Source: Aphanothece saxicola GSE-SYN-MK-01-06B
Lineage (GTDB): Bacteria > Cyanobacteriota > Cyanobacteriia > PCC-6307 > Cyanobiaceae
Assembly: GCA_019359745.1 (NCBI GenBank)
Contig: JAHHGT010000002.1
Coordinates: 434,001 to 498,000 of the forward strand
DNA: 64,000 nt
Direction of reading: 5' to 3'
Of this stretch, positions 7,829 to 47,018 are shown piece after piece. The position numbers and the translations under genes were made by a program. Within the stretch, counting starts at the first letter, position 1, and every line of letters starts with the position of its first letter. The notes under the pieces are model-generated. The model worked only from the letters and a program-made list of their open reading frames with translations, did not search any database and was not told the DNA's origin.

Positions 7829-8061
7829 GGCAGGGGTTCGCCGGGGGCGCGGGTGATCAGGGGCGCTTCGATCTCTTCCTGCAGGGGGGTGATGGCGGCC
7901 TCGCGGGAGCGCAGCAGCAGCTGGGTGAGCCGGGCGATGGCGCCCTCCCCCAGGTCCTGCTCGCCGATGCGGTCGAAGGCCTTGCGGTACAGATCCTCCA
8001 GTTCCTCGATCAGCCCTTCGCGCACCCCACGCATCGACTGACGCTGTTCCTCCCTGCTCAT
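7825..8061 (-). CDS. Small protein of the ergothioneine operon (hercynine metabolism small protein type)
   Basis: A 78-residue acidic helical protein (MSREEQRQSMRGVREGL at the start; LEDLYRKAFDRIGEQDLGEG in the middle). It is encoded within a longer frame that reads through egtD in the wrong frame; the true start is the ATG at 8059-8061. It overlaps the egtD stop by ATGA and the next gene by ATGA, so four genes are tightly coupled. Cyanobacterial egt loci commonly have this small partner. It may bind the coiled-coil protein or EgtB, but that is inference from linkage only. Confidence 0.75.
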   Translation of the reverse strand: MSREEQRQSMRGVREGLIEELEDLYRKAFDRIGEQDLGEGAIARLTQLLLRSREAAITPLQEEIEAPLITRAPGEPLP

Positions 8062-10261: not shown

Positions 10262-10288
10262 GGACCTGCCCTTCTCTGGGGCCGACCT

Positions 10289-10303
10289 TAGGGATGTTCC
10301 CTA
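10289..10303. promoter_or_regulatory. Dyad TAGGGA-3-TCCCTA in the egtB/cysK-like divergent promoter region
   Basis: A perfect 6+3+6 inverted repeat lies in the 60-bp gap between the divergent start codons of egtB and the cysteine-synthase-like gene, 18 bp from the latter. Its size and place would suit an operator shared by both transcripts. No known regulator site is recognised, so this is a positional inference. Confidence 0.35.
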
Positions 10304-10321
10304 CGATCCGCCCACGCAGCC

Positions 10322-32035: not shown

Positions 32036-32809
32036 ATGAAAGCCGTCATCCTGGCCGGTGGACTGGGCACACGATTGGCGGAGGAGACCCACCTGCGGCC
32101 CAAGCCGATGGTGGAGATCGGCGGCAAGCCGATCCTGTGGCACATCCTCAAGATCTACAGCCACCACGGCATCAACGACTTCATCATCTGTTGTGGCTAC
32201 AAGGGTTATGTGATCAAGGAATACTTCGCTAACTATTTCCTGCACACCAGTGATGTCACCTTCCATATGGATCTCAACCATATGGAAGTGCACCGCCAGA
32301 AGGCCGAGCCCTGGAAGATCACCCTGGTCGACACCGGCGATGCCACCCTCACCGGCGGCCGTCTGGCCCGGGTGCGCAGTTACCTTCCCGACGACGAGTC
32401 CTTCTGCTTCACCTACGGCGACGGCGTCGCCGATGTGGACATCACCGCCCTGATCGCCCACCACCAGCGCCAGGGCCTGCAGGCCACCCTCACCGCCGTC
32501 CAGCCCCCCGGCCGCTACGGCGCCCTGCACCTCGACGGCGATGTCGTCACCGACTTCGAGGAAAAGCCCGACGGCGACAACGCCTGGATCAACGGCGGTT
32601 TCTTCGTGCTCGAGCCCGCCGTGATCGACCTGGTCGACGGCGACCAGTGCGTCTGGGAGCAGGCCCCCCTCAAGGCCCTCGCCACCCAGGGCCAGCTCAA
32701 CTCCTTCAAGCACCGCGGCTTCTGGCAGCCCATGGACACCCTGCGCGACCGCCAGCGGCTCGAAGACCTCTGGCAGCAGGGCCGCGCCCCTTGGAAGATC
32801 TGGAGCTGA
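32036..32809 (+). CDS. rfbF: Glucose-1-phosphate cytidylyltransferase
   Basis: Makes CDP-glucose from CTP and glucose-1-phosphate, entering the CDP-3,6-dideoxyhexose pathway. The 257-residue protein has the nucleotidyltransferase signature [20 protein letters not shown] with the second motif [17 protein letters not shown], and the Asp of [13 protein letters not shown]. The characteristic [19 protein letters not shown] segment is present. rfbG follows with 2 bp between the genes. Confidence 0.97.
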
Positions 32810-32811
32810 CC

Positions 32812-33945
32812 ATGACCAGCGCCTCCCCTAAGCGGGCCTGGCAGCAGCCCGATCCCGCCTTCTGGCAGGGCAAGCGGGTGCTGCTCACCGGCCACACCGG
32901 CTTCAAGGGCAGCTGGCTGGCCCTCTGGCTCTGCGAGCTTGGGGCCCGCGTCACCGGCTTCGCCCTGGCGCCGGACACCGACCCCTCCCTGTTCGACCAG
33001 CTCGGCCTTGCATCCCGCCTCGATCACCACGTCGGTGATCTGCGCGATCCGGCCGCCCTTTCTGCGCTGGTGGCCGCCACCCAGCCCGAGGTGGTGCTGC
33101 ACCTGGCGGCCCAGCCCCTGGTGCGGCGCAGCTACGCCGAGCCGGTGCTCACCTGGGAGACCAACGTGCTGGGCACCATCCATCTCATGGAGGCCCTGCG
33201 CCCCCTGGCCCAGCCCTGCGCCGCGGTGCTGATCACCACCGACAAGGTGTACCGCAACAACGAATGGCTCTACGGCTACCGGGAGAACGACCCCCTCGGC
33301 GGCCACGACCCCTACAGCAGCAGCAAGGCCGCCGCCGAGCTGGCCATCAGCTCCTGGCGGGCCAGCTACTGCGGCAGCCTGCCCCACCAGTCGCCCCACC
33401 TGCGCCTGGCCAGCGCCCGGGCCGGCAACGTCATCGGCGGCGGCGACTGGGCCGCCGACCGCATCATTCCCGATACCGTCCGCTCCCTGCGCGCCGGCGA
33501 GCCCATCACCCTGCGCAACCCCGGCGCGACCCGCCCCTGGCAGCACGTGCTCGAACCCCTCGGCGGCTACCTGGCCCTGGCCGAGGCCCTCGCCGAGCCC
33601 TCCGATGGGCGCGCGATGGCCGAAGCCTTCAACTTCGGGCCCCAGCTGGAGGCGAACCGGCCCGTGAGGGAGCTGGTGGAGCAGGCCCTGCACCACTGGC
33701 CCGGCACCTGGATCGATGCCTCCGATCCCAGCGCCCCCCATGAGGCCGGCCTGTTGAACCTGGTGGTCGACAAGGCCCACCACCGCCTCGGCTGGTCGCC
33801 CCGCTGGGATTTCGCCACCACCACCGCTCGCACGCTTCAGTGGTATCGCCGCGTCATCGAAGCGGGCGACGACCCGCTGGCCTGCTGCCTCGACGACCTC
33901 ACCGCCTATCTCGCCTGCTGCCCGCCGGGCCGATCCACCCCATGA
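32812..33945 (+). CDS. rfbG: CDP-glucose 4,6-dehydratase
   Basis: Converts CDP-glucose to CDP-4-keto-6-deoxyglucose. It is an extended SDR of 377 residues with the Rossmann motif VLLTGHTGFKGSWLALWL, the catalytic Thr region LITTDKVYRNNEW, and DPYSSSKAAAEL (YxxxK). The ATG at 32812 directly follows rfbF, and the stop overlaps the rfbH ATG, so translation is coupled. Confidence 0.96.
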   Translation: MTSASPKRAWQQPDPAFWQGKRVLLTGHTGFKGSWLALWLCELGARVTGFALAPDTDPSLFDQLGLASRLDHHVGDLRDPAALSALVAATQPEVVLHLAAQPLVRRSYAEPVLTWETNVLGTIHLMEALRPLAQPCAAVLITTDKVYRNNEWLYGYRENDPLGGHDPYSSSKAAAELAISSWRASYCGSLPHQSPHLRLASARAGNVIGGGDWAADRIIPDTVRSLRAGEPITLRNPGATRPWQHVLEPLGGYLALAEALAEPSDGRAMAEAFNFGPQLEANRPVRELVEQALHHWPGTWIDASDPSAPHEAGLLNLVVDKAHHRLGWSPRWDFATTTARTLQWYRRVIEAGDDPLACCLDDLTAYLACCPPGRSTP

Positions 33946-35432
33946 CCGCCGACCTCGACCAGCTCAAGCAGGAAATCCTCCGGCTCACCCGTGACTACGC
34001 CCGCCGGGCCCACGCCGCCTACCGCCCCGGCGACGACCCCGACCGCACCCCCCACGCCGACGGCCAGACCATCCCCTACGCCGGCCGTGTCTTCACCGAA
34101 GACGAAGTGGAAGCGGCGGTGGGCACCACCCTCGACTTCTGGCTCACCCTCGGCACGGAGGGGGCGGCGATGGAGAGCGAGCTGGCGGCCTTCATGGGCG
34201 TCCGCCACAGCCTGTTGGTGAATTCCGGCTCCTCCGCCAACCTTGTCGCCATCTCGGCCCTCACCTCGCACCGCCTGCCCGCCGAGCGGCGTCTGCGCCC
34301 CGGCGATGAGGTGATCACCGTGGCGGCCGGCTTCCCCACCACCGTGGCGCCGATCCTCCAGGTGGGAGCGGTGCCGGTGTTCATCGACGCCGATCCGGTC
34401 ACCGGCAACGCCCGCTGCGACCAGCTCGAAGCCGCTTTCACCCCCGGCGTCACCAAGGCCGTGATGATGGCCCACGCCCTGGGCAACCCCTTCGATCTGG
34501 CGGCGGTGCTGCGCTTCTGCCGCGCCCACGACCTCTATCTCGTCGAAGACAACTGCGACGCCCTCGGCTGCTCCTATTCCATGCCGCGGGAGCTGGCCGA
34601 ATCCCTCGGCGTCAGCGAGAACAGCCCAGGCCTCGATGAGGGCCCCGACCGCGTCATCCGCTGGACCGGCACCTGGGGCGACATCAGCACCCAGAGCTTC
34701 TACCCGCCCCACCACCTCACCATGGGCGAGGGCGGCGCGGTCAACATCGTGTGCGACCAGAAGCTCAAGGTGGTGGCCGAGAGCTTCCGCGACTGGGGCC
34801 GCGACTGCTGGTGCCCCTCCGGCAAGGACGACACCTGCGGCAAGCGCTTCGACTGGCAGCTGGGCGAACTGCCCGCCGGCTACGACCACAAGTACATCTA
34901 CAGCCACCTCGGCTTCAACCTCAAACCGCTCGATCCCCAGGCCGCCATCGGCCGGGTGCAGTTGCGCCGCCTGCCCGAGTTCATCGAGGCCCGCAAGCGC
35001 AACTGGCAGACTCTGCGCGAAGGCCTGGTGCCCACCGAGCACGTGCTGGAGTTCTCCCTGCCCACCCACGCCACCGGCTGGGATCCGGCGGCCGGCTTCT
35101 CCTGGGACGCCAGCGGCTGCCGCACCGACTGCTCCTGGTTCGGCTTCAAGATCTCGGTGAAGCCCGACGCCCCCTTCCGCCGCACCGACCTGGCCCGGGA
35201 GCTCGATGCCCACCGCATCGGCAACCGCATGCTGTTCGGCGGCAACCTGGTGCGCCAGCCGGCCTTTGTGCAGCTGCGCGCCGATCGCCCCGATGCCCTG
35301 CGGGTGGTGGGCGACCTGGCCGGCGCCGACGCGATCATGGTCGACACCCTGTTCCTGGGCACCTACCCGGGCCTGACGGCTCCGATGCTGGCCAAGGAGA
35401 TCGCCGTGATCCGGGCCTTCTGCCAGGCCTGA
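33942..35432 (+). CDS. rfbH: CDP-4-keto-6-deoxyglucose-3-dehydrase
   Basis: The unusual PMP-dependent iron-sulfur enzyme (E1, DdhC/RfbH) that removes the C3 hydroxyl of CDP-4-keto-6-deoxyglucose. The aminotransferase fold is seen in NSGSSANLVAIS and EDNCDALGCSYS. At the place of the PLP lysine the sequence reads SFYPPHHLTMGEGGAV, with histidine instead of lysine, which is the diagnostic feature of the dehydrases. The C-terminal part has the family pattern SWFGFKISVKPDAPFRRTDL. At 496 residues it is slightly longer than enteric RfbH. Confidence 0.96.
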   Translation: MTADLDQLKQEILRLTRDYARRAHAAYRPGDDPDRTPHADGQTIPYAGRVFTEDEVEAAVGTTLDFWLTLGTEGAAMESELAAFMGVRHSLLVNSGSSANLVAISALTSHRLPAERRLRPGDEVITVAAGFPTTVAPILQVGAVPVFIDADPVTGNARCDQLEAAFTPGVTKAVMMAHALGNPFDLAAVLRFCRAHDLYLVEDNCDALGCSYSMPRELAESLGVSENSPGLDEGPDRVIRWTGTWGDISTQSFYPPHHLTMGEGGAVNIVCDQKLKVVAESFRDWGRDCWCPSGKDDTCGKRFDWQLGELPAGYDHKYIYSHLGFNLKPLDPQAAIGRVQLRRLPEFIEARKRNWQTLREGLVPTEHVLEFSLPTHATGWDPAAGFSWDASGCRTDCSWFGFKISVKPDAPFRRTDLARELDAHRIGNRMLFGGNLVRQPAFVQLRADRPDALRVVGDLAGADAIMVDTLFLGTYPGLTAPMLAKEIAVIRAFCQA

Positions 35433-36298
35433 TGCGGCTGTTCCTCACCGGCGGCACCGGCTTCATCGGCTCCCATGTGCTGGCGGCGGCCCTGGCGGCG
35501 GGCCACCAGGTGCGGGCCCTGCGCCGCACCCCCGCCTCCGCCCCGGTGATCCCCCTGCCGCGTCAGCCCCAGTGGTGCGAGGGCGATCTGCACACCCTCG
35601 CCACCTCCGAGCTGGAGGGGGTGGAGGTGGTGCTGCACCTGGCTTCGGCGGGGGTGAGCCCGAAGCAGGTGCCATGGGCCGAGCTGGTGCAGGCCAATGT
35701 CGCCGGCAGCCTGCGGCTGCTGGAGCTGGCGGCGGAGGCGGGGGTGCGCCGCTGCGTCGTCACCGGCACCAGCCACGAGTACGGCAATGCCGCCCGCCGT
35801 TTTGCGGCGATCCCCCCCGACGCCCCCCTGGAGCCCCTGAGCGCCTACGGGGCCAGCAAGGCGGCGGCCTTCCAGCTGTTGCGCACCTTCGCCATCGAGC
35901 GGCGGCGGGAGCTTTTCTACGGCCGGATCTTCACGGCCTATGGCGAGGGCCAGTTCGCCGGCAACTTCTGGCCCTCCCTGCGGCGCGCCGCCCTGGCCGG
36001 GGAGGATTTCCCCATGACCTCCGGACGCCAGGTCAGCGATTTCATCCCCGCCGACGCCGTGGCGGCCCACCTGCTGGAGGCCTGCACGCGGCCCGACATC
36101 AGCGCAGGCGTTCCCCTGGTGGTCAACATCGGTTCGGGGGCCGCCACCAGCCTGCTGGCCTTCGCCGCGGCGGAATGGGAGCGCCTGGGGGCGACCGGTA
36201 GATTGCGCCCCGGTGTGCTTCCCGACCGCCCCGATCAGATCGAGCGATACGTTCCGGACCTGGCTGGTTTGAGGCTTCCCGTGTCCCCTCTGCCCTGA
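35432..36298 (+). CDS. NAD-dependent epimerase/dehydratase, CDP-paratose synthase-like
   Basis: An extended SDR of 288 residues with LFLTGGTGFIGSHVLAAAL, the catalytic TGTSHEYGNAA and SAYGASKAAAFQLL (YxxxK). Position between rfbH and an rfbE-like epimerase matches rfbS (prt), the 4-ketoreductase that produces CDP-paratose. Abequose synthase is a close relative and cannot be excluded by eye. The ATG overlaps the rfbH stop. Confidence 0.8.
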   Translation: MRLFLTGGTGFIGSHVLAAALAAGHQVRALRRTPASAPVIPLPRQPQWCEGDLHTLATSELEGVEVVLHLASAGVSPKQVPWAELVQANVAGSLRLLELAAEAGVRRCVVTGTSHEYGNAARRFAAIPPDAPLEPLSAYGASKAAAFQLLRTFAIERRRELFYGRIFTAYGEGQFAGNFWPSLRRAALAGEDFPMTSGRQVSDFIPADAVAAHLLEACTRPDISAGVPLVVNIGSGAATSLLAFAAAEWERLGATGRLRPGVLPDRPDQIERYVPDLAGLRLPVSPLP

Positions 36299-36303
36299 AT
36301 CCG

Positions 36304-37362
36304 ATGAAGGTCCTGATCACCGGCGGTTGCGGCTTTCTCGGCTCCAACCTGGCCGCCTCCTACCTCCAGGACGGCGCCGAGGTGATCGTGGTCGATGCCC
36401 TGTTCCGGCGGGGATCGGCGGCCAACCTGGCCTGGCTGGAGTCCCAGGCCGCCCCCGGGCGCTTCCATTTCATCCAGGCCGACCTGGCCGAGGCCGAGGC
36501 CGTGCTGGCCGTCTTCCGCCGCCACGCCCCCTTCGACTACATCGCCCATGTGGGCGGACAGGTGGCGATGACCACCTCCCTGCAGGATCCCGCCCGCGAC
36601 CTGCAGACCAACGTGCTCGGCACCTTCGCGGTGCTTGAAGCGGCCCGGGCCCTCTCCCCGGAGGCCCTGATCGCCTACAGCAGCACCAACAAGGTCTACG
36701 GCGACCTGGAAGGGCTCCGCTACGAGGAGACCCCCACCCGCTACCGCCTGCCGGATCACCCCGAAGGCCTCGATGAAGCGCTGGGGCTGGACTTCTCCAC
36801 CCCCTACGGCTGCTCCAAGGGGGCGGCGGATCAGTACGTGCGCGACTGGGCCCGCGTCTATGGCCTCAAGACGGTGGTGTTCCGCCATTCCTCGATCTTC
36901 GGCGGCCGCCAGTTCGCCTCCTTCGACCAGGGCTGGGTGGGCTGGTTCTGCCAGAAGGCGATCGAGCAGAAGCGCGCCCACCAGGCGGGAGTGGCCCCCG
37001 AGCCCTTCACCATCGCCGGCACCGGCAAGCAGGTGCGCGACGTGCTCCATGCCGACGACCTGATCCGCCTTTACCGGGCCGCCTACGAGCACCGGGAGCG
37101 GATGACCGGCGAGATCTTCAACATCGGCGGCGGCGCCGCCAACTCCCTCAGCCTGCTGGAGCTGTTCGCCCTGCTCGCCGAGCTGCTGGCCATTCCGCCG
37201 CTGGTGTACACCCCCACCCCCCGCCGCGCCAGCGACCAGGACTGCTTCATCGCCGACATCGCCAAGGCCCAGCGGCTGCTGGGCTGGGCGCCGGCCATCT
37301 CCTGTCGCGATGGCGTCAGCCGCATGCTCACCTGGACCGACACCCAGCTGATGGCGGCCTGA
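36304..37362 (+). CDS. rfbE: CDP-paratose 2-epimerase (CDP-tyvelose synthesis)
   Basis: A 352-residue extended SDR: VLITGGCGFLGSNLAASYL, the catalytic region YSSTNKVYGDLEGL, and PYGCSKGAADQYVRDWAR, with RHSSIFGGRQFASFDQGWVGWF. STNKVYGDL and the preceding HVGGQVAMTTSL closely follow the CDP-tyvelose epimerase family, which inverts C2 of CDP-paratose. It completes the set rfbF-G-H-S-E, in the order found in Salmonella Typhi. The product would be CDP-tyvelose. Confidence 0.88.
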   Translation: MKVLITGGCGFLGSNLAASYLQDGAEVIVVDALFRRGSAANLAWLESQAAPGRFHFIQADLAEAEAVLAVFRRHAPFDYIAHVGGQVAMTTSLQDPARDLQTNVLGTFAVLEAARALSPEALIAYSSTNKVYGDLEGLRYEETPTRYRLPDHPEGLDEALGLDFSTPYGCSKGAADQYVRDWARVYGLKTVVFRHSSIFGGRQFASFDQGWVGWFCQKAIEQKRAHQAGVAPEPFTIAGTGKQVRDVLHADDLIRLYRAAYEHRERMTGEIFNIGGGAANSLSLLELFALLAELLAIPPLVYTPTPRRASDQDCFIADIAKAQRLLGWAPAISCRDGVSRMLTWTDTQLMAA

Positions 37363-37383
37363 GCGGAGACGTTGCGCGCACCC

Positions 37384-38805
37384 ATGGCGAACATTCTCCA
37401 GAAGATCCAGCAGTTCCGCCGGTCAGCCGAGCAGCGCCTGCCCCCCCGCCTCCACGACTTTCTCGTCTCCGCCGCCCTGGTCGGCCTCTGCGCCCTCGGC
37501 TACCACCTGCGGCGTCCATCCATTTCCCTGCAACCGGGCCTCTACGCGGAGGATGGCTCGATCTTCCTGCAGCAGGCCATCGATCAGGGCGCCGGATCGC
37601 TGGTCCAGCTCTATGCGGGCTACAGCCATCTGCTGCAGCGGATCACGGCGCTCACGGCGGTGAATCTGCTCTCGCCGCTGAGCTATCCAAGCTTCTTTCT
37701 GCTGGTGGCCTGGGCCTCCTGGCTGCTGCCCCTGGTCAGCGTCGAGGCCCTGATCGGAGCCGGGGTGTTCAGCCGGGCGATGCGGCTGGCCTACATCCCC
37801 TACGTGTATTACCCCTACGCCGGCGAAACCTATCTGAACCTTCCCAACGCCTACATCTTCTTCCCGCTCGGCTTCATCCTGATCGCCTACGGCGTGGTGG
37901 CCCAGCAGGGGAGTGGCCGGCCGGAGTTTCCGCAGCATCCGGCCCTCAAAGGTCTGCTGGCGCTCTACGGGCTGGTGGCGGCCTTCACCGGCCCGTTCAT
38001 GGCCATCTACACGATTCCGCTGCTGATCTTCGCTGGCCTCCGCCACCGCCGGCTGCCGCTGCGGCCCCTGTGGCTGAGCCTGCCGGTGCTGCTGTCGTCC
38101 CTGCAGATCTACGTTTCCCAGCTGCAGACCGACTACCCCCTCTCCACGGCCCGGGCGCTTGCCAAGCTGCTGATGCATCCCGCCGTGCTGCTCGACTGGT
38201 TCACGGTGCATCTGATTGCCCCACTGCTGGGGGGCTACAAGCCCTGGTGGTACCTGCGAGACCTGCCCGATCCTCTTCAGCTGCTGGCCGTGCTCGGGGT
38301 GCTGGCCCTGGTGGTGCTGGCCGTGCGGGTGGTGACGGGGCGCATGGGCCAGCCGGCCCTGCTCTACCTGGGAATCTTTTCCACCCTGGTGCTCTCCTTC
38401 TCCAGCCTGCTGGTGGCCACCCGTCGCGGGGTGGACCTGAAGATGCTGAGCGTTGAAGATGCGGGCGGGCGTTTCTTCTACTGGAACACCGTCCTGTTTC
38501 TGTCGGTGTTGCTGCTGGCGTTCTTCTTTCTGGTGCGTGACCCCCGTACCCGGAACAGCGCCACCAGCCGAGCCCTGGCCATCTGGCTGGTGCTGACGCT
38601 GGTTTTCTATCACAACAATGTCGTCGAACGGACCGTCATCGAGGTGAGCCCATCGGGCGAGATCAGGACCCTTGTCTACGGAGATCAGCTGCGGGACCAA
38701 TGTCAGCGAAGGAATCCGCTGCCGATCAAGATCTTCGGCGGCCCCATCTGGGACTTCCAGCTGGGCCAGCGCCAGATCGACAAGCTGTGCGCCAATCTCA
38801 GCTAA
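37384..38805 (+). CDS. Polytopic membrane protein, possible GT-C glycosyltransferase
   Basis: A 473-residue protein with about ten membrane helices. The first outside loop contains an acidic pair (GLYAEDGSIFLQQAIDQG), the usual place of the GT-C catalytic Asp/Glu, and a soluble tail lies at the C-terminus (IKIFGGPIWDFQLGQR). It has no similarity that I can name with confidence. It lies after rfbE in the same direction, so a role in O-antigen assembly or modification with a lipid-linked sugar is likely. The ATG at 37384 is preferred to the TTG at 37372. Confidence 0.65.
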   Translation: MANILQKIQQFRRSAEQRLPPRLHDFLVSAALVGLCALGYHLRRPSISLQPGLYAEDGSIFLQQAIDQGAGSLVQLYAGYSHLLQRITALTAVNLLSPLSYPSFFLLVAWASWLLPLVSVEALIGAGVFSRAMRLAYIPYVYYPYAGETYLNLPNAYIFFPLGFILIAYGVVAQQGSGRPEFPQHPALKGLLALYGLVAAFTGPFMAIYTIPLLIFAGLRHRRLPLRPLWLSLPVLLSSLQIYVSQLQTDYPLSTARALAKLLMHPAVLLDWFTVHLIAPLLGGYKPWWYLRDLPDPLQLLAVLGVLALVVLAVRVVTGRMGQPALLYLGIFSTLVLSFSSLLVATRRGVDLKMLSVEDAGGRFFYWNTVLFLSVLLLAFFFLVRDPRTRNSATSRALAIWLVLTLVFYHNNVVERTVIEVSPSGEIRTLVYGDQLRDQCQRRNPLPIKIFGGPIWDFQLGQRQIDKLCANLS

Positions 38806-39143
38806 CGCCCGAACATACCAACCGCGACGATGGCATAACCAAGGGTGATCGCCACCAGGCTGGCCGGTGGCAGAGCGGCCGAATCCTTGATGGCAAACAG
38901 CACATACAGCAACGGATATTGCAGGCTCAGCATCAGCACCGCCAGTTTGCGGTCGGCGGCGGGCAGCACCAGCGCCGTGATTCCAAACGACGCGCCATAG
39001 CAAAGCAGCGAAGCCGCCAAGTAGAGCATGGAGGTGCGGAAGCCATCGGCTGGCGGGCGGATCCGCAAGATGAATTGGCCCAGGCACGCTGCGAGAACGG
39101 CAGCCAAAAGATACACTGCCTGCAGCATGCTTTTTGTCAACAT
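38802..39143 (-). CDS. Small four-helix membrane protein, SMR/EamA-like
   Basis: A 113-residue protein with four membrane helices: LLAAVLAACLGQFILR, MLYLAASLLCYGASFGI, LAVLMLSLQYPLLYVLF and LVAITLGYAIVAVGMF. This is the architecture of small multidrug resistance-like proteins, some of which (ArnE/ArnF type) flip undecaprenyl-phosphate-sugars. Next to a polyprenyl-phosphate glycosyltransferase gene, a flippase role is plausible. The start ATG at 39143 overlaps the divergent GT2 gene by 10 bp; the frame extends upstream but that part is antisense to the GT2 gene. Confidence 0.7.
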   Translation of the reverse strand: MLTKSMLQAVYLLAAVLAACLGQFILRIRPPADGFRTSMLYLAASLLCYGASFGITALVLPAADRKLAVLMLSLQYPLLYVLFAIKDSAALPPASLVAITLGYAIVAVGMFGR

Positions 39144-40093
39144 TGAGCCATCATATCGCCATTTGCATTCCATGTTACAACGAGTCCTCCAACGTTGAAG
39201 CCCTCTATGTGAGGCTGTCGAAGGTTCTTGATCAGTTCCCCGACGATGTCTTCTCCGTCGTGTTCGCCGATAATTGCTCCACCGACCACACGGTCGCTCT
39301 GATTGAGGGATTGGCGGCAAGGGATTCGCGGATTGGCCTGATTCGCAATGTTTCCAACTTCGGCTTTGTGCGTTCCTCTGCCAACGCTCTGCTGGTCCCT
39401 GATGCCGATGCCAATGTCTTCCTGATGGCGGACCTGCAGGATCCCCCCGAATTGGTGGCTGATCTGATCACGGCCTGGAAGAAGGGCGATAACCAGGTGA
39501 TCTTTGCTGTGCGGCGCTCCAGCCATGAGAGTCCGATCCTGTTTCTCTGCAAAAAGATCTACTACGCCACGCTGTCCTGGCTCTCCGACTACCCGATGGT
39601 GCGGGATACCACCGGCTTCGGCATCTATGATCGCTCCGTGATTCTGGCCCTGCGGGAGTCGATCGATTCCTACCCCTTCATCAAGGGTCTGGTCTGCGCC
39701 ATCGGCTTCAAGTGGTCGACGATTCCCTACGTGAGTGCCGATCGCAAGGGGGGCAGCAGCTCCGCCTCGCTGTCGTTCTTGGTGGATTTCGGCGTGCTCG
39801 GCATCGTCACCTCCTCCCGCAAGCCCATGCGCCTGATCACCACGGCCGGCCTGTCGCTCGGGGCCCTCTCGATCCTGCTGTCGTTCGTGGTGATGCTCAG
39901 CAAGCTGATCTACTGGCAGAGCTTCCAGTTCGGTCTGGCCATGCTCTCGATTTCGGCGCTGTTCTTCGCCGGCGCCATGATGTTTGCCCTCGGCATCCTG
40001 GGCGAATACATCGGTTTCATCAACCAGCGCACCCTGCGTCTCCCCCTTGTGGTGGAGCGCAGCCGCCATAACGTGCCGTCCCGCCAGGGCTGA
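39134..40093 (+). CDS. GT2 polyprenyl-phosphate glycosyltransferase (GtrB/DPM1-like)
   Basis: A 319-residue protein with an N-terminal GT-A domain (IAICIPCYNESSNVEALYV; the DxD-equivalent [14 protein letters not shown]) and two C-terminal membrane helices (about 232-258 and 268-293). DLQDPPE is typical of enzymes that attach a sugar to polyprenyl phosphate at the inner face of the membrane. The GRKGGSSS-like loop (DRKGGSSSASL) is also family-typical. The start is a TTG overlapping the divergent small membrane protein gene, with which it may form a sugar-P-lipid synthesis and flipping pair. Confidence 0.9.
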   Translation: MSTLSHHIAICIPCYNESSNVEALYVRLSKVLDQFPDDVFSVVFADNCSTDHTVALIEGLAARDSRIGLIRNVSNFGFVRSSANALLVPDADANVFLMADLQDPPELVADLITAWKKGDNQVIFAVRRSSHESPILFLCKKIYYATLSWLSDYPMVRDTTGFGIYDRSVILALRESIDSYPFIKGLVCAIGFKWSTIPYVSADRKGGSSSASLSFLVDFGVLGIVTSSRKPMRLITTAGLSLGALSILLSFVVMLSKLIYWQSFQFGLAMLSISALFFAGAMMFALGILGEYIGFINQRTLRLPLVVERSRHNVPSRQG

Positions 40094-40205: not shown

Positions 40206-40355
40206 ATGCGCCACTCATCGAGGCTGTGCCGTTTCGCCATTCGCCGCCGGGCTGATCAGCAACGGCTCCGCAACCTGCGGCTGGCTCGCCTTTGGGTTTA
40301 CGCCTTCAAGCCCATGGTGGGGGCGTATCGCTGCCCATGGCTAACTGTTCCATGA
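40206..40355 (+). CDS. Possible small basic ORF overlapping the SDR start
   Basis: A 49-codon frame starting at ATG 40206 reads MRHSSRLCRFAIRRRADQQ and then LRNLRLARLWVYAFKPMV, and ends with TGA overlapping the SDR ATG (ATGA). The overlap and strong basic, amphipathic character are suggestive, but length alone gives little support. It may be a remnant of a larger gene or a short leader for the downstream operon. The remaining gap 40094-40205 shows nothing else. Confidence 0.3.
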   Translation: MRHSSRLCRFAIRRRADQQRLRNLRLARLWVYAFKPMVGAYRCPWLTVP

Positions 40356-41080
40356 CCGACGTCCTTCCAAATCTTGCGCCGAGGAATGCGCTGGTCTTCG
40401 GCGCTGGTGGTGCCTTGGGTTCGGCCATCGCCTCAGCGATGACGGCCCGGGGGGATCACCTCCACACGGCTGGCTCCGCAGGCGCCTCTCCCACAGCGGA
40501 TGCTCGCTCCCATGTTGCGCTGTCCTATGCCAAACCGCCGAGCGCCACCCATTTTTCGGCCTTGCCGCCGCTTGATGCGGTCGTGTGGGCCCACGGTCTC
40601 AACGCCAGTGACACGATCACCAATTTTGATCAGGTCACTTTTGAGCGGCTTTGGCAAAGCAATGTTATGTTCATTGCGGCTAGTCTTTCGGCCTTGTTGG
40701 TAAGTGGGCGGCTGCAGCGTGGCAGTCGTCTTTGTGTCATCAGTTCCATCTGGCAGCTGGAGAGTCGGCCTGGAAAACTCGCTTACACCGTATCAAAAGC
40801 TGCTCTGCAGGGCCTTGTGAAGTCATGCGCGCTGGATCTTGGAGCCCAAGGCATTCTGATCAATGCGATTCTTCCTGGTGTGGTGGACTCACCCATGACA
40901 CGACGTCACCTATCCGCGGACCAGATTGAGACGATCACATCCCAGACTGCGCTTGGCCGGCTTGCGCAGCCACAGGATATCGCAGATGCCACTGCCTTCC
41001 TTGTCGGCCCCTCCAATCGATTCATCACCGGCCAATTTCTGACCGTAGATGGCGGATTCATCGGCTTCAAACACACCTAG
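40352..41080 (+). CDS. Short-chain dehydrogenase/reductase of the cyclase/TPP module
   Basis: A 242-residue SDR. The cofactor motif is NALVFGAGGALGSAIASAM, the NNAG-equivalent is VVWAHGLNASDTI (changed to AHG), and the catalytic pair is in YTVSKAALQGLV with ISSIWQLESRPGK before it. The C-terminus TGQFLTVDGGFIGFKHT is SDR-typical. It starts a plus-strand operon with a dehydroquinate-synthase-like gene 6 bp downstream. It probably oxidises or reduces a hydroxyl of the module's intermediate; the substrate is unknown. An ATG at 40337 is an alternative start. Confidence 0.85.
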   Translation: MTDVLPNLAPRNALVFGAGGALGSAIASAMTARGDHLHTAGSAGASPTADARSHVALSYAKPPSATHFSALPPLDAVVWAHGLNASDTITNFDQVTFERLWQSNVMFIAASLSALLVSGRLQRGSRLCVISSIWQLESRPGKLAYTVSKAALQGLVKSCALDLGAQGILINAILPGVVDSPMTRRHLSADQIETITSQTALGRLAQPQDIADATAFLVGPSNRFITGQFLTVDGGFIGFKHT

Positions 41081-41086
41081 ATTCCT

Positions 41087-42199
41087 ATGCCTTCTCCCCC
41101 TCTGGCTTCGTTCCCACCCATCGAGATCAAAAGCTCACTCTCCGACTACAGGATCAACTTCGATGGGCTAACCGATCTGGGGAGTTGGCGTCCCAATGCG
41201 GACCTGCTTCTGATTGATGCATTCTTCAAGGACAGCATTCACATGAGAGAGGGTCAGCCTGTCATCTTCGTAGAGGCCAACGAAGACGCCAAGGCCCTGC
41301 CACAGACAGTCGACATCTTCGTTGCACTCAAGCAAGCTGGTCTCGGTCGCGGCTCCCGCCTGTTGGCCGTCGGGGGCGGCGTCATTCAGGATATCGCCAC
41401 GTTCGTCAGCTCGCTCTACATGCGCGGCATTTCCTGGGACTACGTACCGACCACATTCCTTGGCATGGCAGATTCTTGTCTGGGAGGTAAGAGTTCAATC
41501 AATGTCGGCGCTTTCAAGAATCTGATCGGCAACTTCCACCCCCCCAGGCGCATCGAAATTCTTCCTGTCTTTGCCCGCACACTTCCTCCTGTAGAGATCG
41601 CAGCAGGGGCTGCAGAGGCAGCCAAGATTGCTTTCTGCCGTGGACCGGAGGCCTTTGCCAGCTATCTGACGTTGGTGCATCCTGTTTTGTCTGGGACCTG
41701 GAGTGAGCAGGAGTTGGCAGGTTTGCTGCACGCCACCTTGAGGGTCAAGCAGTGGTTCGTTGAGAAGGATGAGTTTGACAGGGCCGAGAGGCGCTGCCTC
41801 AACTTTGGGCACACCTGGGGGCATGCGTTGGAGTCGGCAACTGACTTCGCCATTCCCCATGGACTGGCGGTGGCTCTTGGGATGATGGCAGCCATCTGCT
41901 ACCTCGGATCACCCTCCTACTGTCTGCCCCTATGGGAACATTGTCTCCAGCTGTTGCGTCCGACGTTGCCTCCGTCTGCTGTTGAATTGTTTGATCCGAA
42001 TCGCTTCCGGTCTGCCTTTCTTGCCGACAAGAAGCATTCGGCTGGTTTTTATCATGTGATCATTCCTTCTTCCAGCGCTTTGGAACTTGGCGTAGAGGAG
42101 GTCATGATCCCTGCCGGCGAGCCCCAGTTGGCAACCATCCTCTTCGCCATGGAAGAGGCCTTGAAGGCCGTGTCTTCTGTTCCTTTTGAGGCTACTTAG
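41087..42199 (+). CDS. 3-Dehydroquinate synthase-like sugar-phosphate cyclase
   Basis: A 370-residue member of the dehydroquinate synthase superfamily. The NAD-binding motif is LLAVGGGVIQDIATFVSSLY with RGISWDYVPTTFLGMADSC, and the metal ligands are in AAEAAKIAF and LNFGHTWGHALES. The superfamily includes AroB and the sedoheptulose-7-phosphate cyclases that make C7N carbocycles. The setting in a polysaccharide locus, not with aro genes, argues against housekeeping AroB. The next gene begins at the base after the stop. The substrate cannot be assigned from sequence. Confidence 0.8.
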   Translation: MPSPPLASFPPIEIKSSLSDYRINFDGLTDLGSWRPNADLLLIDAFFKDSIHMREGQPVIFVEANEDAKALPQTVDIFVALKQAGLGRGSRLLAVGGGVIQDIATFVSSLYMRGISWDYVPTTFLGMADSCLGGKSSINVGAFKNLIGNFHPPRRIEILPVFARTLPPVEIAAGAAEAAKIAFCRGPEAFASYLTLVHPVLSGTWSEQELAGLLHATLRVKQWFVEKDEFDRAERRCLNFGHTWGHALESATDFAIPHGLAVALGMMAAICYLGSPSYCLPLWEHCLQLLRPTLPPSAVELFDPNRFRSAFLADKKHSAGFYHVIIPSSSALELGVEEVMIPAGEPQLATILFAMEEALKAVSSVPFEAT

Positions 42200-43993
42200 A
42201 TGAAATACTCTGACGCGATGCTGCTTTGGCTGAAATCCGAGGGGTTTACCCATTGCTACTTTGTGGCAGGGGGAAACATCATGCATTTGTTGAACTCCGC
42301 CCGTCTGCAGATGGTCTGCATACCGACAGTGCATGAGGTCGCTTCCGTCATCGCTGCCGAACACCACAATGCCACGCTGAATTCAGGTACGGCTGAAGAA
42401 GGAGTCGGCCGTGCCTTCGTCCTTGTCACGGCAGGCCCCGGATTAACCAATGCTCTCACTGGCCTGGCTGGTGCCTGGCTGGAAAGCCGTGAGCTACTGC
42501 TGCTCGGAGGCCAAGTCAAAGTTGTTGATCTTGCGCCTCCCGCTCTTCGTCAGCTTGGTATCCAGGAAGTGGACGGAGTTGCACTTGCGTCGCCTCTTTG
42601 CAAGCGCAGTCTGTGTTTGAGGGAGCCCCTTGATCGCCCATCTTTCTTGGCCACTGTCGCTCTGAGCTGGCAGGGTCGCCCTGGGCCGGTGTTCCTGGAA
42701 CTGCCGCTTGACGTTCAGGCTCAGCAAGTGCCCGAGGCGTGGGCCGCGGCTGCTGAGGATCCGTCAGGCTTCGCGACCGCCCGCGCCATCCCGGATATGG
42801 CGCCCGTTGCGGCTCGCATCGCGGCTGCCCAACGGCCTGTGCTTCTCATCGGTGGAGGCGTCTCACGTCCCTGTGCTCAGAGGCTCGAATCTGTGCTGCA
42901 GTCCCTCAGCGTGCCTGTGATGACGACCTGGAATGGGGCCGATCGCTACGGATCTGAGCATTCGAACTACTTCGGTCGCCCTAACACCTGGGGACAGCGT
43001 TACAGCAATGTGCTGCTGCAGCAGTCGGACTTGCTTCTTGCCCTAGGTACCCGTCTCGGGCTACAGCAAACAGGGTTCAACTGGCAGGCGTTCATGCCGG
43101 TTGGGGATGTCATTCAGGTGGACATTGATCCTGCAGAGCTGGCGAAGCCAAATCCGCAGCTGTCGGAAGCCATTGAGGCCGATGCAGATGCTGCGCTCAG
43201 CCAGCTGCTCAGCCACGATCTTGGCCAGCATCCTGAATGGATGTCCTTCTGCCATCAAGTGAAGGCACTTCTGCCTCTTTCAGAGTCCTGCAATGCAACG
43301 ACGGAGGGCTATCTGAACCCCTATGACATGGTGATGGATCTCGCCAGTATCTGCGGTGATGCAGATCATATCGTCCCATGTAGCAGTGGCAGTGCCTTCA
43401 CAGTGATGATGCAGGCCTTTCAACTCCGCCAAGGCCAGACGATGCTCACGAACAAGGGATTGGCGAGCATGGGATACGGCCTTTCGGCAGCTATCGGAGT
43501 TGCATTTGCGGATCGCAGACACCGTACTGTTCTGGTTGAGGGGGATGGTGGTTTCAGTCAGAATCTTCAGGAGCTGGCCACAGTCGTCGTCAATGATCTG
43601 AATCTCAAAATCTTTCTCTTTTGTAATGAAGGCTATGCATCAATTCGCATGACCCAGAAGAACTACTTTGATGGCGCCTATGTCGGCTGTGATGTCCTCT
43701 CCGGTCTCGGTTTCCCTGATTGGATGCTTCTGGGGCAGGCCTACGGCCTGCCTGTTCACAGTCTCTCTGCTGAGGGTTGGTCTGATGACTCTGTTTTCCT
43801 CGAATTGTGGGAGCGCCCATCGCCAGCCTTGTTCCTTGTGTCCATCCACCCGGAGCAGACTTACTTTCCCAAGATATCAAGCCGAATCAGTGCTCAAGGA
43901 GGTATGGAATCAAACCCGCTTCATCGCATGACTCCGGACCTCCCTGCCGAGTTGGCACTTGGTGTTTACCGATACCTTGGCTCGGCTGACTGA
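42200..43993 (+). CDS. Acetolactate synthase-like thiamine diphosphate enzyme
   Basis: A 597-residue ThDP-dependent enzyme of the acetolactate synthase/benzoylformate decarboxylase type with all three domains. The catalytic Glu is in TVHEVASVIAAEHH, the central domain is VLLIGGGVSRPCAQRLES, and the ThDP motif is VEGDGGFSQNLQELATVVV ending at the Asn of CNEGYASIRMTQ. The NEGYxSIRxTQ variant suggests a group seen in LPS clusters rather than true acetolactate synthase. Known enzymes of this fold such as YerE add a two-carbon unit from pyruvate to a keto sugar. It sits directly between the cyclase-like and aldolase genes. Confidence 0.85.
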   Translation: MKYSDAMLLWLKSEGFTHCYFVAGGNIMHLLNSARLQMVCIPTVHEVASVIAAEHHNATLNSGTAEEGVGRAFVLVTAGPGLTNALTGLAGAWLESRELLLLGGQVKVVDLAPPALRQLGIQEVDGVALASPLCKRSLCLREPLDRPSFLATVALSWQGRPGPVFLELPLDVQAQQVPEAWAAAAEDPSGFATARAIPDMAPVAARIAAAQRPVLLIGGGVSRPCAQRLESVLQSLSVPVMTTWNGADRYGSEHSNYFGRPNTWGQRYSNVLLQQSDLLLALGTRLGLQQTGFNWQAFMPVGDVIQVDIDPAELAKPNPQLSEAIEADADAALSQLLSHDLGQHPEWMSFCHQVKALLPLSESCNATTEGYLNPYDMVMDLASICGDADHIVPCSSGSAFTVMMQAFQLRQGQTMLTNKGLASMGYGLSAAIGVAFADRRHRTVLVEGDGGFSQNLQELATVVVNDLNLKIFLFCNEGYASIRMTQKNYFDGAYVGCDVLSGLGFPDWMLLGQAYGLPVHSLSAEGWSDDSVFLELWERPSPALFLVSIHPEQTYFPKISSRISAQGGMESNPLHRMTPDLPAELALGVYRYLGSAD

Positions 43994-44843
43994 AAAACTG
44001 CGCATTTCTGGTAAGATTCGCGAAATCGTGATCAAGCCTATGAACGCGCATGAACGCAAGATGCTTGATATTCTTAAGCGAGGAAAAGAATGTTATGGAG
44101 TATTGGCAACAAAGGCAGAGTTTGAGGCCGAAGGAACCCGTACGGACGAACTTCTCAGGCTGTTGGAAATCGCCCATAAGGCTGAAGTCGGCATGGCTCT
44201 TAAGGTTGGTGGTTGCGAGGCGATCCGTGACATGCTGGAAGCGCGGCAATTTGGGGTTAACTACATCATCGCTCCGATGGTGGAATCACCCTATGCGTTA
44301 ACAAAGTTTATTGCCGCCAAGAACAAGGTCTTTTCTCCAGAAGATCAAGAGGACGTGAAATTCCTGTTCAATGTGGAGACAATTGCCGCTTATCGTTGTA
44401 TTGATGATTTGATAGCTGCCGCATCTGCGGAAGTAGGTTGCAATGGCGTCGTGTTTGGTCGCGTTGACTTCAGTTGTTCACTCGGCGTCGGAAGAGATGG
44501 TCTCGAAGGCGACGAGGTCACCAGGATTGGCGAAGAAATCGCCATGAAGTGCCACAGGGCCGGGCTTGAGTTCGTTGTCGGTGGGGCCGTATCCATTGAT
44601 GCGTTTCCAAATTTACGGAGGCTCCAAGCGGTGCATCTGGATCGCTTCGAAACACGCAAGGTTGTCTTTGACGGTTCAGCTCTTGACTCGCCAGATCTTG
44701 CTGAAGCATTGCTGCAGGCTGTTCACTTTGAATTGCTTTGGCTCCTCAACAAGCGTGAGTATTATGGATTGATGTATCAAGAAGATCAAATGCGGATCGA
44801 GATGCTTGAGAGTCGCTGGAAGGTCCTTGAGCGCGACGCCTGA
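43959..44843 (+). CDS. HpcH/HpaI-type aldolase/citrate lyase family protein
   Basis: A 294-residue TIM-barrel protein. MALKVGGCEAIRDM and YIIAPMVESPYALTKF resemble the HpcH/HpaI and citrate-lyase beta families, and NVETIAAYRCIDDL carries the metal-binding Glu. VFGRVDFSCSLG has the second acidic ligand. Class II pyruvate-type aldol chemistry would be expected. The start is uncertain: GTG 43959 overlaps the TPP gene by 35 bp, and ATG 44040 (MNAHERKMLDIL) is the alternative. It is the fourth gene of the module. Confidence 0.78.
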   Translation: MVFTDTLARLTEKLRISGKIREIVIKPMNAHERKMLDILKRGKECYGVLATKAEFEAEGTRTDELLRLLEIAHKAEVGMALKVGGCEAIRDMLEARQFGVNYIIAPMVESPYALTKFIAAKNKVFSPEDQEDVKFLFNVETIAAYRCIDDLIAAASAEVGCNGVVFGRVDFSCSLGVGRDGLEGDEVTRIGEEIAMKCHRAGLEFVVGGAVSIDAFPNLRRLQAVHLDRFETRKVVFDGSALDSPDLAEALLQAVHFELLWLLNKREYYGLMYQEDQMRIEMLESRWKVLERDA

Positions 44844-44938
44844 AGCTTAGGAAATTCTCCGCTTTTCATTGATGGCCATTGCGACCATTGAGCATTTAGG
44901 TTCATTCTCCGACTGTTTTTCTCTTGTCGTACCAGCTC

Positions 44939-45871
44939 ATGTCTGATTTTCAATCCAAGCCTATTGCGGTGACGGGTGCCACTGGTTGGGTTGGCAAATC
45001 TGCACTGCATGAACTACAGCTCACGCTCGAGCCAAACCTGTTTCGCCAGTATGTCAAAGCCTATGCGAGTAAGTCAGGATCTTTATGCACCACAGCCTAT
45101 GGGCGAGATCATCAGTTCGACTATCCAGTCTTCTCACTGGCCGAATTGCCTGAGCATGCAGTAAAAGATCCATTCGGTAGCATCTTTCATGCCGCGTTCT
45201 TCCCTCGTTCTGGCCTTGATGTTGTCGGAGTTGACTCTTATATCGCTATCAACCGAGAGATAACAAGGCTTGTTTGTGACGCCGTCACACACTCACCGGG
45301 AGTTCGGGTGGTCAATATCTCATCGGGAGCGGCGTCTTCCTTTGACGGCGAGCTTCCAGGATATGGCGATAAACTGCTTCAGAACCCCTATGGAGCTCTT
45401 AAACATGAGGAGGAGAAACGTATTGGAGATCTGACTGGCAGTCTTATCCTCAGGATCTACTCCCTTACTGGTAGGTTCATGACGAACCCCCAGATTTATG
45501 CCTTGGGTGACTTTCTCCTAAAGGCGCGTGACAAAACACAAATCATCCTCAAGTCAAAAAACCGTGTCGTGCGGGGATTTGGTCATGCGTCTAATATCTC
45601 TGCGTTGGCTTGGGCATGGGCGAAAAGCGACCATGCACCGCTTCAGAGTCCTTTGGCAACAGTCAGTCACGAAACTGACTTAAACGAGCTGGCTCAGAAA
45701 GTCAGCAAGATGTTCAACTTGCCTGAGCCTGTATCGTCCCTGGATAGTGCACTGTCTCCAAATATCTATTCAGCTGATACGACACCCTTTCTTGCTTTTC
45801 TCGGAGAGTTTGGCCTATCTGCGTCGACAATGGAGGAGCAGATTGCTGATACGGCTATGGGACTTTCTTGA
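44939..45871 (+). CDS. NAD-dependent epimerase/dehydratase
   Basis: An extended SDR of 310 residues. The cofactor motif is IAVTGATGWVGKSALHEL, the catalytic Ser region is VNISSGAASSFDGELP, and NPYGALKHEEEKR supplies YxxxK. It resembles NAD-dependent sugar epimerases but no substrate class stands out. It lies 95 bp after the aldolase gene and may be the last gene of the module; its end overlaps by 17 bp the end of the convergent methyltransferase gene. The ATG at 44939 is used instead of the TTG at 44924. Confidence 0.8.
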   Translation: MSDFQSKPIAVTGATGWVGKSALHELQLTLEPNLFRQYVKAYASKSGSLCTTAYGRDHQFDYPVFSLAELPEHAVKDPFGSIFHAAFFPRSGLDVVGVDSYIAINREITRLVCDAVTHSPGVRVVNISSGAASSFDGELPGYGDKLLQNPYGALKHEEEKRIGDLTGSLILRIYSLTGRFMTNPQIYALGDFLLKARDKTQIILKSKNRVVRGFGHASNISALAWAWAKSDHAPLQSPLATVSHETDLNELAQKVSKMFNLPEPVSSLDSALSPNIYSADTTPFLAFLGEFGLSASTMEEQIADTAMGLS

Positions 45872-47018
45872 GCTCATCAGGCTGATGAAGGATCTCAATC
45901 CCATCCAGCCTGAGTGCCGAAATGTGTGTATCTGCAGGATACGTTGACTGGATCACTCCAAGGATTTCTTTTGTGTATGCCGGTGCGGCAATGATTATGG
46001 CATCAGCGGCGCGTTCCAGGGCTTCAGATGGAGAGATGATTTCGATATGGGATGCTGGCGAGAACTTTCCCTGTTTAAACTCTGCTGAGTCAATGATGTA
46101 TTCAACTTTGCCCCCTATATCTGCACATGAGATGATTGTAAATCCTTGATGGCTTGCACCCCATATGGCAACCCGTCTGCCTTGACACTTGAGATCATCG
46201 ATCAATTCATTCAGCTCTCGACGTAGCCTCATATAGTTGTCTGTCAGTCCACCTAAAGCAATGACAGGTCTCTTTCTTGCATAGGCACAGATCGTGTCCT
46301 CATTGAATAGAGTGACCTCAATGACGTCGAATCCATTCGTCTCGAGCATGCGCCTTAATGTGGCTTCTGTAAAGTAAAGAAGATGGTCTCTGACAAACTC
46401 ATAGTAGGCGTTATGGCGCTGAATGTGATCAAAGCTTGGGACTGTAATAAGTCCAACACCATCAGAAGAAAGACTGCTGTGTATTCCAGCCAGCATTCCG
46501 CTTGGATTGGGTTGGTGCTCCAGGAAGTTGAAGGAGAGAAAGCCGTCATAGGGTGAGCCAGGCACAATGGACGCACAGGTGTCGACAAATCCTTCCATCA
46601 CAGGTAGACCCTTGCTTTGAGCAGCTAGAACGGAGGCCTTGCAGTGCTCAATGCCTGTGACTCTTGTGGGCTGTTCAGAGAAAAGCTGAATGAAGTCACC
46701 TTTGCCACAGCCAACTTCAATGAGATGTTTGTTCTCCAATGAAAACCTCTTGACAAAATCCTTGTATAGCTCAAGCTTCAGGTTCGCGAATGCGCCTTTC
46801 ACAGGCATTGCCCTGATCACATCGCGATAATACTCAACTGGTTCGCAGTCAAGCTGAAGAGTCTCACAAGACAGGCACTGCCTGACGTTGAAATCGATTC
46901 CTTTATCCACATCAAGTTCTTCCCTTGTTGGCATCTGTTGAGCGCCTGAAGGAAGATTGCTGTAATGAAGGATAGGGGCAGACAATTGATTGCTGCAAAC
47001 CAGGCAAGCTTGTCTCAT
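45855..47018 (-). CDS. Sugar C-methyltransferase-like SAM enzyme with zinc-finger N-terminus
   Basis: A 387-residue three-domain methyltransferase. N-terminal zinc-binding cysteines occur as CLVC (near residue 5) and CLSC (near 48). The SAM motif is LIEVGCGKGDFIQLF (about 98-112), and a C-terminal Rossmann-like domain has VAIWGASHQGFTII. This order is that of the NovU/TylC3 type C-methyltransferases that act on nucleotide keto-sugars, adding a branch methyl group. It is convergent with the preceding epimerase gene. Confidence 0.85.
   Translation of the reverse strand: MRQACLVCSNQLSAPILHYSNLPSGAQQMPTREELDVDKGIDFNVRQCLSCETLQLDCEPVEYYRDVIRAMPVKGAFANLKLELYKDFVKRFSLENKHLIEVGCGKGDFIQLFSEQPTRVTGIEHCKASVLAAQSKGLPVMEGFVDTCASIVPGSPYDGFLSFNFLEHQPNPSGMLAGIHSSLSSDGVGLITVPSFDHIQRHNAYYEFVRDHLLYFTEATLRRMLETNGFDVIEVTLFNEDTICAYARKRPVIALGGLTDNYMRLRRELNELIDDLKCQGRRVAIWGASHQGFTIISCADIGGKVEYIIDSAEFKQGKFSPASHIEIISPSEALERAADAIIIAAPAYTKEILGVIQSTYPADTHISALRLDGIEILHQPDELKKVP

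Follow-up and report, generated by a model that had tools for sequence, protein, structure and literature searches.

Which sugar could be made by a gene set that combines a cyclase-like enzyme, a carboligase and an aldolase? The question is raised by a locus of the cyanobacterium Aphanothece saxicola GSE-SYN-MK-01-06B (contig JAHHGT010000002.1, positions 434,001 to 498,000; this whole stretch of 64,000 nucleotides is called the window here). Five genes follow each other on the + strand with gaps of 6, 0, 46 and 80 bases. They encode a classical short-chain dehydrogenase/reductase (SDR1, 40352..41080, adh_short_C2), an AroB-like enzyme predicted to be an NAD-dependent sugar-phosphate phospholyase (CYC, 41087..42199, N- and C-domain of DHQ_synthase), a predicted YerE-like thiamine diphosphate (ThDP) carboligase (42200..43993, three TPP domains), a predicted pyruvate aldolase of the HpcH/HpaI fold (ALD, 44040..44843, Pfam HpcH_HpaI) and an extended SDR (EPI, 44924..45871, Epimerase family). 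The starts of these genes, as well as those of rfbG and rfbH below, were picked by eye inside the listed open reading frames (ORFs). A first-pass annotation had already described this tight series, and its family assignments were recovered by profile searches. The variant motif NEGYxSIRxTQ that it pointed out is present in the ThDP enzyme as NEGYASIRMTQ.

It is well supported that the cassette makes a branched sugar. On balance, a CDP-activated, C4-branched 3,6-dideoxyhexose of the caryophyllose type, destined for a surface glycan, is the somewhat favored product, with the AroB-like step removing a phosphate without closing a ring.

Acceptor, carboligase and aldolase

The acceptor genes are rfbF (glucose-1-phosphate cytidylyltransferase, 32036..32809), rfbG (CDP-glucose 4,6-dehydratase, 32812..33945 within ORF 32647-33945) and rfbH (CDP-4-keto-6-deoxyglucose 3-dehydrase, 33942..35432 within ORF 33840-35432), all on the + strand. 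Each exceeds its curated cut-off (TIGR02623, 478 bits against 300; TIGR02622, 484 against 278; NF011936, 618 against 423). Their earlier identification thus stands, but "just upstream" has to be relaxed: in the window, as in its close relatives L064-L067, four genes (35432-40093) separate rfbH from SDR1. The remaining seven genomes of the window's family that have the cassette (L068-L074) show rfbH directly adjoining SDR1.

The best PDB match of the ThDP enzyme is JanthE (8rph, E 7e-85), followed by acetolactate synthase (3e-57). The YerE-like nature proposed at first pass is therefore upheld through JanthE, the YerE-like enzyme that the comparison covered. YerE takes a CDP-4-keto-3,6-dideoxy sugar as its acceptor (PMC12247030), and the one from rfbFGH is very probably the acceptor in the window as well.

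The donor was originally thought to yield a two-carbon branch as in YerE. However, the aldolase next to the ThDP enzyme points to a longer alpha-keto acid. Such donors are known: ErwE favors hydroxylated keto acids longer than C4, MMAR_2332 of the caryophyllose pathway has a similar preference, and MygE (gastriose) accepts C3 to C8 keto acids (PMC12247030).

The HpcH_HpaI score of ALD is barely above the cut-off (26.7 against 25 bits). Its AlphaFold model (pLDDT 94.3) is structurally closest to HpaI (Z 19.6, 196 aligned residues, 2.7 A), with pyruvate kinases at Z 18.9, so that the family profile and the TIM-barrel fold both place ALD among the HpcH/HpaI proteins. E113 and D143, which we take from the motif to be metal ligands, are invariant in 39 aligned aldolases.

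The caryophyllose cluster of Mycobacterium marinum

The main clue to the branch comes from genome G965. Its assignment to the M. marinum complex comes from published mmpL12 primers: of five, four match exactly and one with one mismatch. The nearby ORFs of 2123, 585 and 1408 residues have the sizes of pks, fatty-acyl-CoA synthetase and mmpL12, the gene order tabulated in PMC4403928; the match is one of ORF size and order alone. About 24 kb from this region, genes for CYC, SDR, aldolase, ThDP enzyme, a GT2 glycosyltransferase, rfbF, rfbH and rfbG lie in a row, which we infer to correspond to MMAR_2329 to MMAR_2336. As MMAR_2333 is a glycosyltransferase (PMC4403928) and MMAR_2332 is the ThDP enzyme of caryophyllose (PMC12247030), MMAR_2331, MMAR_2330 and MMAR_2329 would be the aldolase, the SDR and CYC. 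Mutants of MMAR_2331, MMAR_2332 and MMAR_2333 each accumulate a lipooligosaccharide (LOS) precursor without caryophyllose (PMC5706390).

Caryophyllose, a C12 sugar, bears a hydroxylated chain of six carbons on C4 (PMC7821131). It is 3,6-dideoxy-4-C-[altro-1,3,4,5-tetrahydroxyhexyl]-xylo-hexopyranose, in which C2' and C6' of the branch are deoxy and no carbocycle is present (PMC5706390). Carbons 1' and 2' fit C2 and C3 of pyruvate, and carbons 3' to 6' fit a four-carbon aldehyde. The six-carbon branch is thus the skeleton of AroB's own substrate minus the carboxyl, and its 6' methyl is the expected outcome of phosphate elimination followed by ketone reduction. From the missing ring and the methyl end it is proposed that the AroB-like enzyme deoxygenates rather than cyclizes. 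The earlier expectation that cyclase chemistry would give a carbocycle does not hold up well here, since the matching cassette of the M. marinum complex serves an open, methyl-terminated branch. An open-access literature search returned nothing connecting dehydroquinate with caryophyllose. The first-pass annotation regarded the possible residue as not described in cyanobacteria. The cyanobacterial setting is new, but caryophyllose itself and MMAR_2332, the ThDP enzyme that serves it, have been described before (PMC12247030).

In the cluster of the M. marinum complex (locus L178, 5796-7262, - strand), a gene for an FGGY-type carbohydrate kinase lies next to CYC. This kinase might supply the phosphorylated aldehyde precursor.

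The AroB-like enzyme

CYC scores 261 bits against TIGR04425 (cut-off 400) and 217 bits against TIGR01357 (cut-off 305). A second dehydroquinate synthase (DHQS) is encoded on another contig of the same genome and has the higher Pfam score (167 bits, against 109 for CYC); CYC is therefore not the sole copy. In a FastTree phylogeny of 113 sequences (midpoint root), 34 AroB rows group together (support 0.86) and CYC falls outside. A separate clade (support 0.92) unites 66 cassette CYCs with nine TIGR04425 members and L019, while L012 belongs to neither main clade. The possibility named in advance that CYC might be a lone housekeeping AroB was thus not seen.

The CYC-side clade carries its own mark. 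Gln (Q101) is found in a GGGxxQD motif in 76/76 sequences (the 66 CYCs, the nine TIGR04425 members and L019) and in 0/34 AroB rows, all 34 of which hold Gly or Thr at this position of GGGxxGD, a motif that is presumably NAD-binding. Five of the nine TIGR04425 members in the tree were inspected with their flanks, and all five lie inside ALD-SDR1-CYC-TPP cassettes (L219-L222, L225).

The AlphaFold model of CYC (pLDDT 94) retrieves DHQS in the first 19 of 50 Foldseek rows, and each of 13 DHQS residues checked is kept in 66/66 cassette CYCs. The residues were mapped by motif onto the Aspergillus numbering, with R130 not located by the script. Among the kept residues are K250, R264, N268, H275 and K356, all five of which are changed in L181, annotated as a sedoheptulose 7-phosphate cyclase, and in L206. 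A carboxylated substrate resembling 3-deoxy-2-heptulosonate 7-phosphate (DAHP) is therefore likely. If R264 and K250 are the carboxylate ligands, as we assume for DHQS, the substrate would retain its carboxylate and CYC would act before the ThDP step.

Two other roles were considered and rejected. Supply of dehydroquinate for aromatic amino acids is left to the separate AroB on the other contig. An EEVS-type cyclase is contradicted by the residues; this comparison sets CYC apart from EEVS through one annotated sequence (L181), with DOIS outside the residue-by-residue check.

L206 itself (G965 C1:633082) comes from the M. marinum complex, where it is the third member of the DHQ_synthase family and shows residue changes like those of EEVS. 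A DHQ_synthase search of 16 other genomes gave at least two matches in 12, one in three and none in one, and a further copy is present in 12/13 CYC-bearing genomes examined. Two of the three single-copy genomes are of the HAD type described below. The third is G731 (M. bohemicum), where the search gave the cassette CYC alone (L197, C1:1391574), perhaps owing to a gap in the assembly or the search.

Near-exclusive occurrence of CYC and a HAD gene

Loci for comparison were sampled with the aldolase as bait, so that aldolase-less cassettes fall outside the sample. In the scan of species genomes, 489 of at least 588 stretches encode an aldolase relative; the best 80 of these 489 were analyzed, and the sample consequently leans towards the window. 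Of these best 80, 72 have a ThDP match close to the aldolase. Before scoring, copies (L060, L089-L096, L180, L229, L230, L236) and the Ilyobacter locus L063 were excluded. Of 117 loci scored, L223 and L224 lack an aldolase, and another 43 were set aside because no ThDP gene lies within 13 kb or because the aldolase is not flanked by 4 kb of sequence on both sides. Of the 72 loci kept, 67 have one rfb gene or more nearby.

CYC and a HAD protein are nearly exclusive: 48 kept loci have CYC only, 16 HAD only, three both and five neither (Fisher p 4e-9, treating loci as independent). With strong HAD matches only (at least 100 bits), the corresponding counts are 50, 15, 1 and 6. Thinning at 75% aldolase identity leaves 28, 13, 1 and 4 (46 loci), and thinning at 65% leaves 9, 8, 0 and 2 (19 loci). 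SDR1 strictly accompanies CYC, being found in 51/51 kept loci with CYC and 0/21 without; among short or cut loci outside the 72, L138 and L151 have SDR1 but no CYC, and L152 has CYC but no complete SDR1.

The exchange also appears repeated. In a quick tree of the ThDP enzymes, the supported branches require at least seven changes between the CYC and HAD states, and the HAD locus of M. terramassiliense (L146) is nested among CYC-bearing Mycobacterium in a clade of seven (support 99, inner forks 81-94). All four HAD proteins examined belong to HAD_2, and the two run against NCBIfam come nearest to phosphoglycolate phosphatases, with scores under the cut-offs. This swap is most simply explained by one phosphorylated intermediate that both kinds of cassette share and complete differently, next to the same aldolase and ThDP genes.

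Proposed pathway

A route can be proposed in which the substrates and the order of steps 3 to 6, as well as the stereochemistry of the substrates, are tentative. In step 1, rfbFGH would generate CDP-4-keto-3,6-dideoxyglucose. In step 2, the aldolase would couple pyruvate with a phosphorylated aldehyde; in the variant with the AroB-like enzyme, erythrose 4-phosphate is the best guess and would give 3-deoxy-2-heptulosonate 7-phosphate (DAHP or a stereoisomer). CYC would then oxidize this compound, beta-eliminate the terminal phosphate and reduce, as in DHQS (step 3). The resulting enol would be protonated to a methyl ketone without ring closure, and the ketone would be reduced by SDR1 (step 4). 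Subsequently, the ThDP enzyme would decarboxylate the 2-keto-3-deoxy acid and place the six-carbon acyl group on C4 of the CDP-sugar (step 5). Finally, EPI could reduce the new C1' ketone (step 6), leaving a caryophyllose-like 1,3,4,5-tetrahydroxyhexyl branch. EPI-like matches recur beside the aldolase in many cassettes.

In the sister cassettes, the HAD phosphatase would take the place of CYC and SDR1 and leave a terminal CH2OH. The branch of gastriose ends in CH2OH; this is not used as support for the HAD rule. More generally, there is about an even chance that the GGGxxQD family of the DHQS fold, found in several phyla and at least one lineage of viral contigs, has switched its chemistry from closing a ring to deoxygenation, removing the phosphate of a sugar acid to give a terminal methyl ketone for its partner SDR, and can be exchanged for a HAD phosphatase in cassettes that are otherwise equal, the choice setting CH3 or CH2OH as the end of the branch.

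If so, a rule from gene to structure would emerge for C4-branched sugars: the aldolase feeds the ThDP enzyme, and either the AroB-like enzyme with its SDR or a phosphatase finishes the branch. It would also suggest how the terminal methyl of caryophyllose arises, and extend this type of chemistry to picocyanobacteria and viral contigs. The NCBI label "cyclizing" would then mislead the annotation of a widespread family.

Alternative explanations

Could CYC close a ring after all? The phosphorylated keto side chain might be cyclized after the ThDP step as in DHQS, yielding a quinate-like carbocycle at C4. The conserved residues, a fold nearest to DHQS and the "cyclizing" in the name of TIGR04425 speak for it, and bacteria are known to contain carbocyclic sugars, caryose among them (PMC9671505). 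This outcome is nevertheless unlikely, because the matching M. marinum-complex cassette serves a linear, methyl-terminated branch and because decarboxylation would leave no carboxylate for the strictly kept K250 and R264, given the roles we assume for them. Caryose itself was retained solely inside this alternative, as no biosynthetic genes for it were met in the portions of the literature examined. Bradyrhizose, also carbocyclic, was dropped as a candidate: the available main text on its 11-gene cluster (PMC4743980) does not contain dehydroquinate, thiamine or epimerase, and no comparison is possible.

More improbable still is a role of CYC and SDR1 outside the branched-sugar pathway, in which the pair would provide the glycan with another sugar or a cyclitol and would simply be inherited together with the branched-sugar genes. 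Locus L223 (about 7600-10100; genome G272, of the window's family) would agree with this, as it holds SDR1 and a Q-marked CYC with no aldolase or ThDP match in 19 kb, possibly a separate use of the pair. So would the "neither" locus L126, with about 13 kb between the pair and the aldolase. Yet the near-exclusive swap with HAD implies one shared phosphorylated intermediate, and the list of LOS sugars of M. marinum in PMC5706390 has no cyclitol. A YerE-type acetyl branch, with the aldolase and the cyclase in an unrelated role, has very little probability: beyond the CDP acceptor shared with YerE, it has to face the frequent pairing of aldolase and ThDP genes (in a sample baited with the aldolase) and the caryophyllose-free mutants of MMAR_2331, the presumed aldolase.

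Several points also weigh against a deoxygenating CYC and a caryophyllose-type product. With all 13 checked residues kept, the CYC sequence holds nothing that would prevent a ring from closing, and the final steps of DHQS are said to be spontaneous. The CYCs of the window and of the M. marinum complex are just 38% identical, so their products may differ, and L223 shows that the pair can occur without aldolase or ThDP matches. No knock-out of MMAR_2329 or MMAR_2330 was found in the parts of the literature examined, and the role of CYC accordingly rests on cluster content. MygE had no ketone activity in vitro, and ketones are yet to be tried with MMAR_2332 (PMC12247030).

The swap and the aldolase call for caution too. 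A sign test on independent tree paths gives a median p of 0.06 (range 0.016-0.375), short of 0.05. A TIGR04425 gene was the reason for including L219-L222 and L225, five of the 72 loci, which favors CYC. In L225, alone among the loci kept, CYC occurs together with a strong HAD match (8885-10653, the HAD gene lying between CYC and the ThDP gene). The catalytic base of HpaI is a histidine, and as no histidine is invariant across the 39 aldolases, the base of ALD may differ. Finally, a 37% identical aldolase relative from Ilyobacter (L063) stands among aconitase- and dehydrogenase-like genes in a catabolic-looking set.

Distribution of the cassette

A search with the window's aldolase in 400 genomes of its family (Cyanobiaceae) gave 26 with a match, the window's own included. 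SDR1, CYC, ThDP enzyme, aldolase, EPI and rfbH occur together in 12 of the 26 (the window and L064-L074), i.e. in 12/400 genomes. Six more have the aldolase and the ThDP enzyme without CYC (L075, L077-L081), and eight have the aldolase without a ThDP gene in the stretch covered (L076, on a short contig, and L082-L088). Among the species-genome matches listed, the cassette is also present in Proteobacteria, Actinobacteria, Acidobacteria and Eremiobacterota. The five genes thus co-occur elsewhere, and the isolated occurrence that would have spoken against a functional set was not seen. In less biased genome draws the aldolase is rare: 8/398 genomes of the Pseudomonas phylum, 3/296 of the Mycobacterium phylum and 6/248 of the genus Mycobacterium, each count including the centre genome.

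In L083-L088, distant aldolase relatives lie beside a second aldolase-like gene and in some cases also a HAD gene; a neighboring protein looks LdpA-like by eye. These loci perhaps belong to another phosphorylated keto-acid pathway. On a plasmid of Novosphingobium humi (L062, 13103-15777), rfbF, rfbG and the aldolase occur with no ThDP match in 31 kb.

L059 (11 kb) and L060 (part of 167 kb), viral contigs that closely resemble each other, carry the order rfbH-ALD-SDR1-CYC-TPP, a putative virus-borne branched-sugar cassette with rfbH-like, aldolase, SDR1, CYC and ThDP genes (L059 1-5305; L060 1-5245). In L060 it lies near a gene for dCMP deaminase and near another gene that matches a phage family labeled NAD synthetase and, more weakly, homing endonucleases. 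The aldolase search gave no match among INPHARED phages, and PHROGs has no family for the window's CYC, ALD or EPI.

Neighboring genes

A GT2 glycosyltransferase gene upstream of SDR1 (39134..40093, + strand) encodes a possible transferase of the branched sugar. It resembles the glycosyltransferase of the M. marinum-complex cassette with 32% identity and 148 bits, against 22% and 52 bits for the other of the two window GT2s compared. GT2 matches occur near many cassettes among the best 80 stretches. The C-methyltransferase adjoining the five-gene set (45855-47018, - strand), which had been noticed at first pass, is a real gene (PF08484), but a relative is found near just 13/115 aldolase loci.

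Comparison with known systems

With AroB, CYC shares the DHQS fold and the 13 checked catalytic residues. It differs in its separate clade, in the Gln that replaces Gly or Thr in GGGxxGD and in its score below the TIGR01357 cut-off. Clade and Gln mark are common to CYC and TIGR04425, the "AroB-related putative sugar phosphate phospholyase (cyclizing)"; unlike the members of this family, CYC stays below the cut-off of 400 bits, and the "cyclizing" in the name is doubted here.

The ThDP enzyme resembles the YerE-like enzymes (YerE, ErwE, JanthE, MygE) in its nearest structure and in the CDP-4-keto-3,6-dideoxy acceptor that is expected. In contrast to JanthE, which has CDG (PMC12247030), it contains GDG, and its presumed donor is a long keto acid from the neighboring aldolase. 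A survey cited in PMC12247030 lists more than 200 YerE-like enzymes and may mention genes of the cassette.

The closest known system is the caryophyllose cluster, where rfbF/G/H, the ThDP enzyme, the aldolase, an SDR and the AroB-like gene are likewise present. The proteins of the window and the M. marinum complex are 52% (ThDP enzyme), 56% (aldolase), 38% (CYC) and 30% (SDR) identical. The gene order and the cyanobacterial host differ, and the FGGY-type kinase that adjoins the M. marinum set does not appear among the genes annotated for the window in this analysis.

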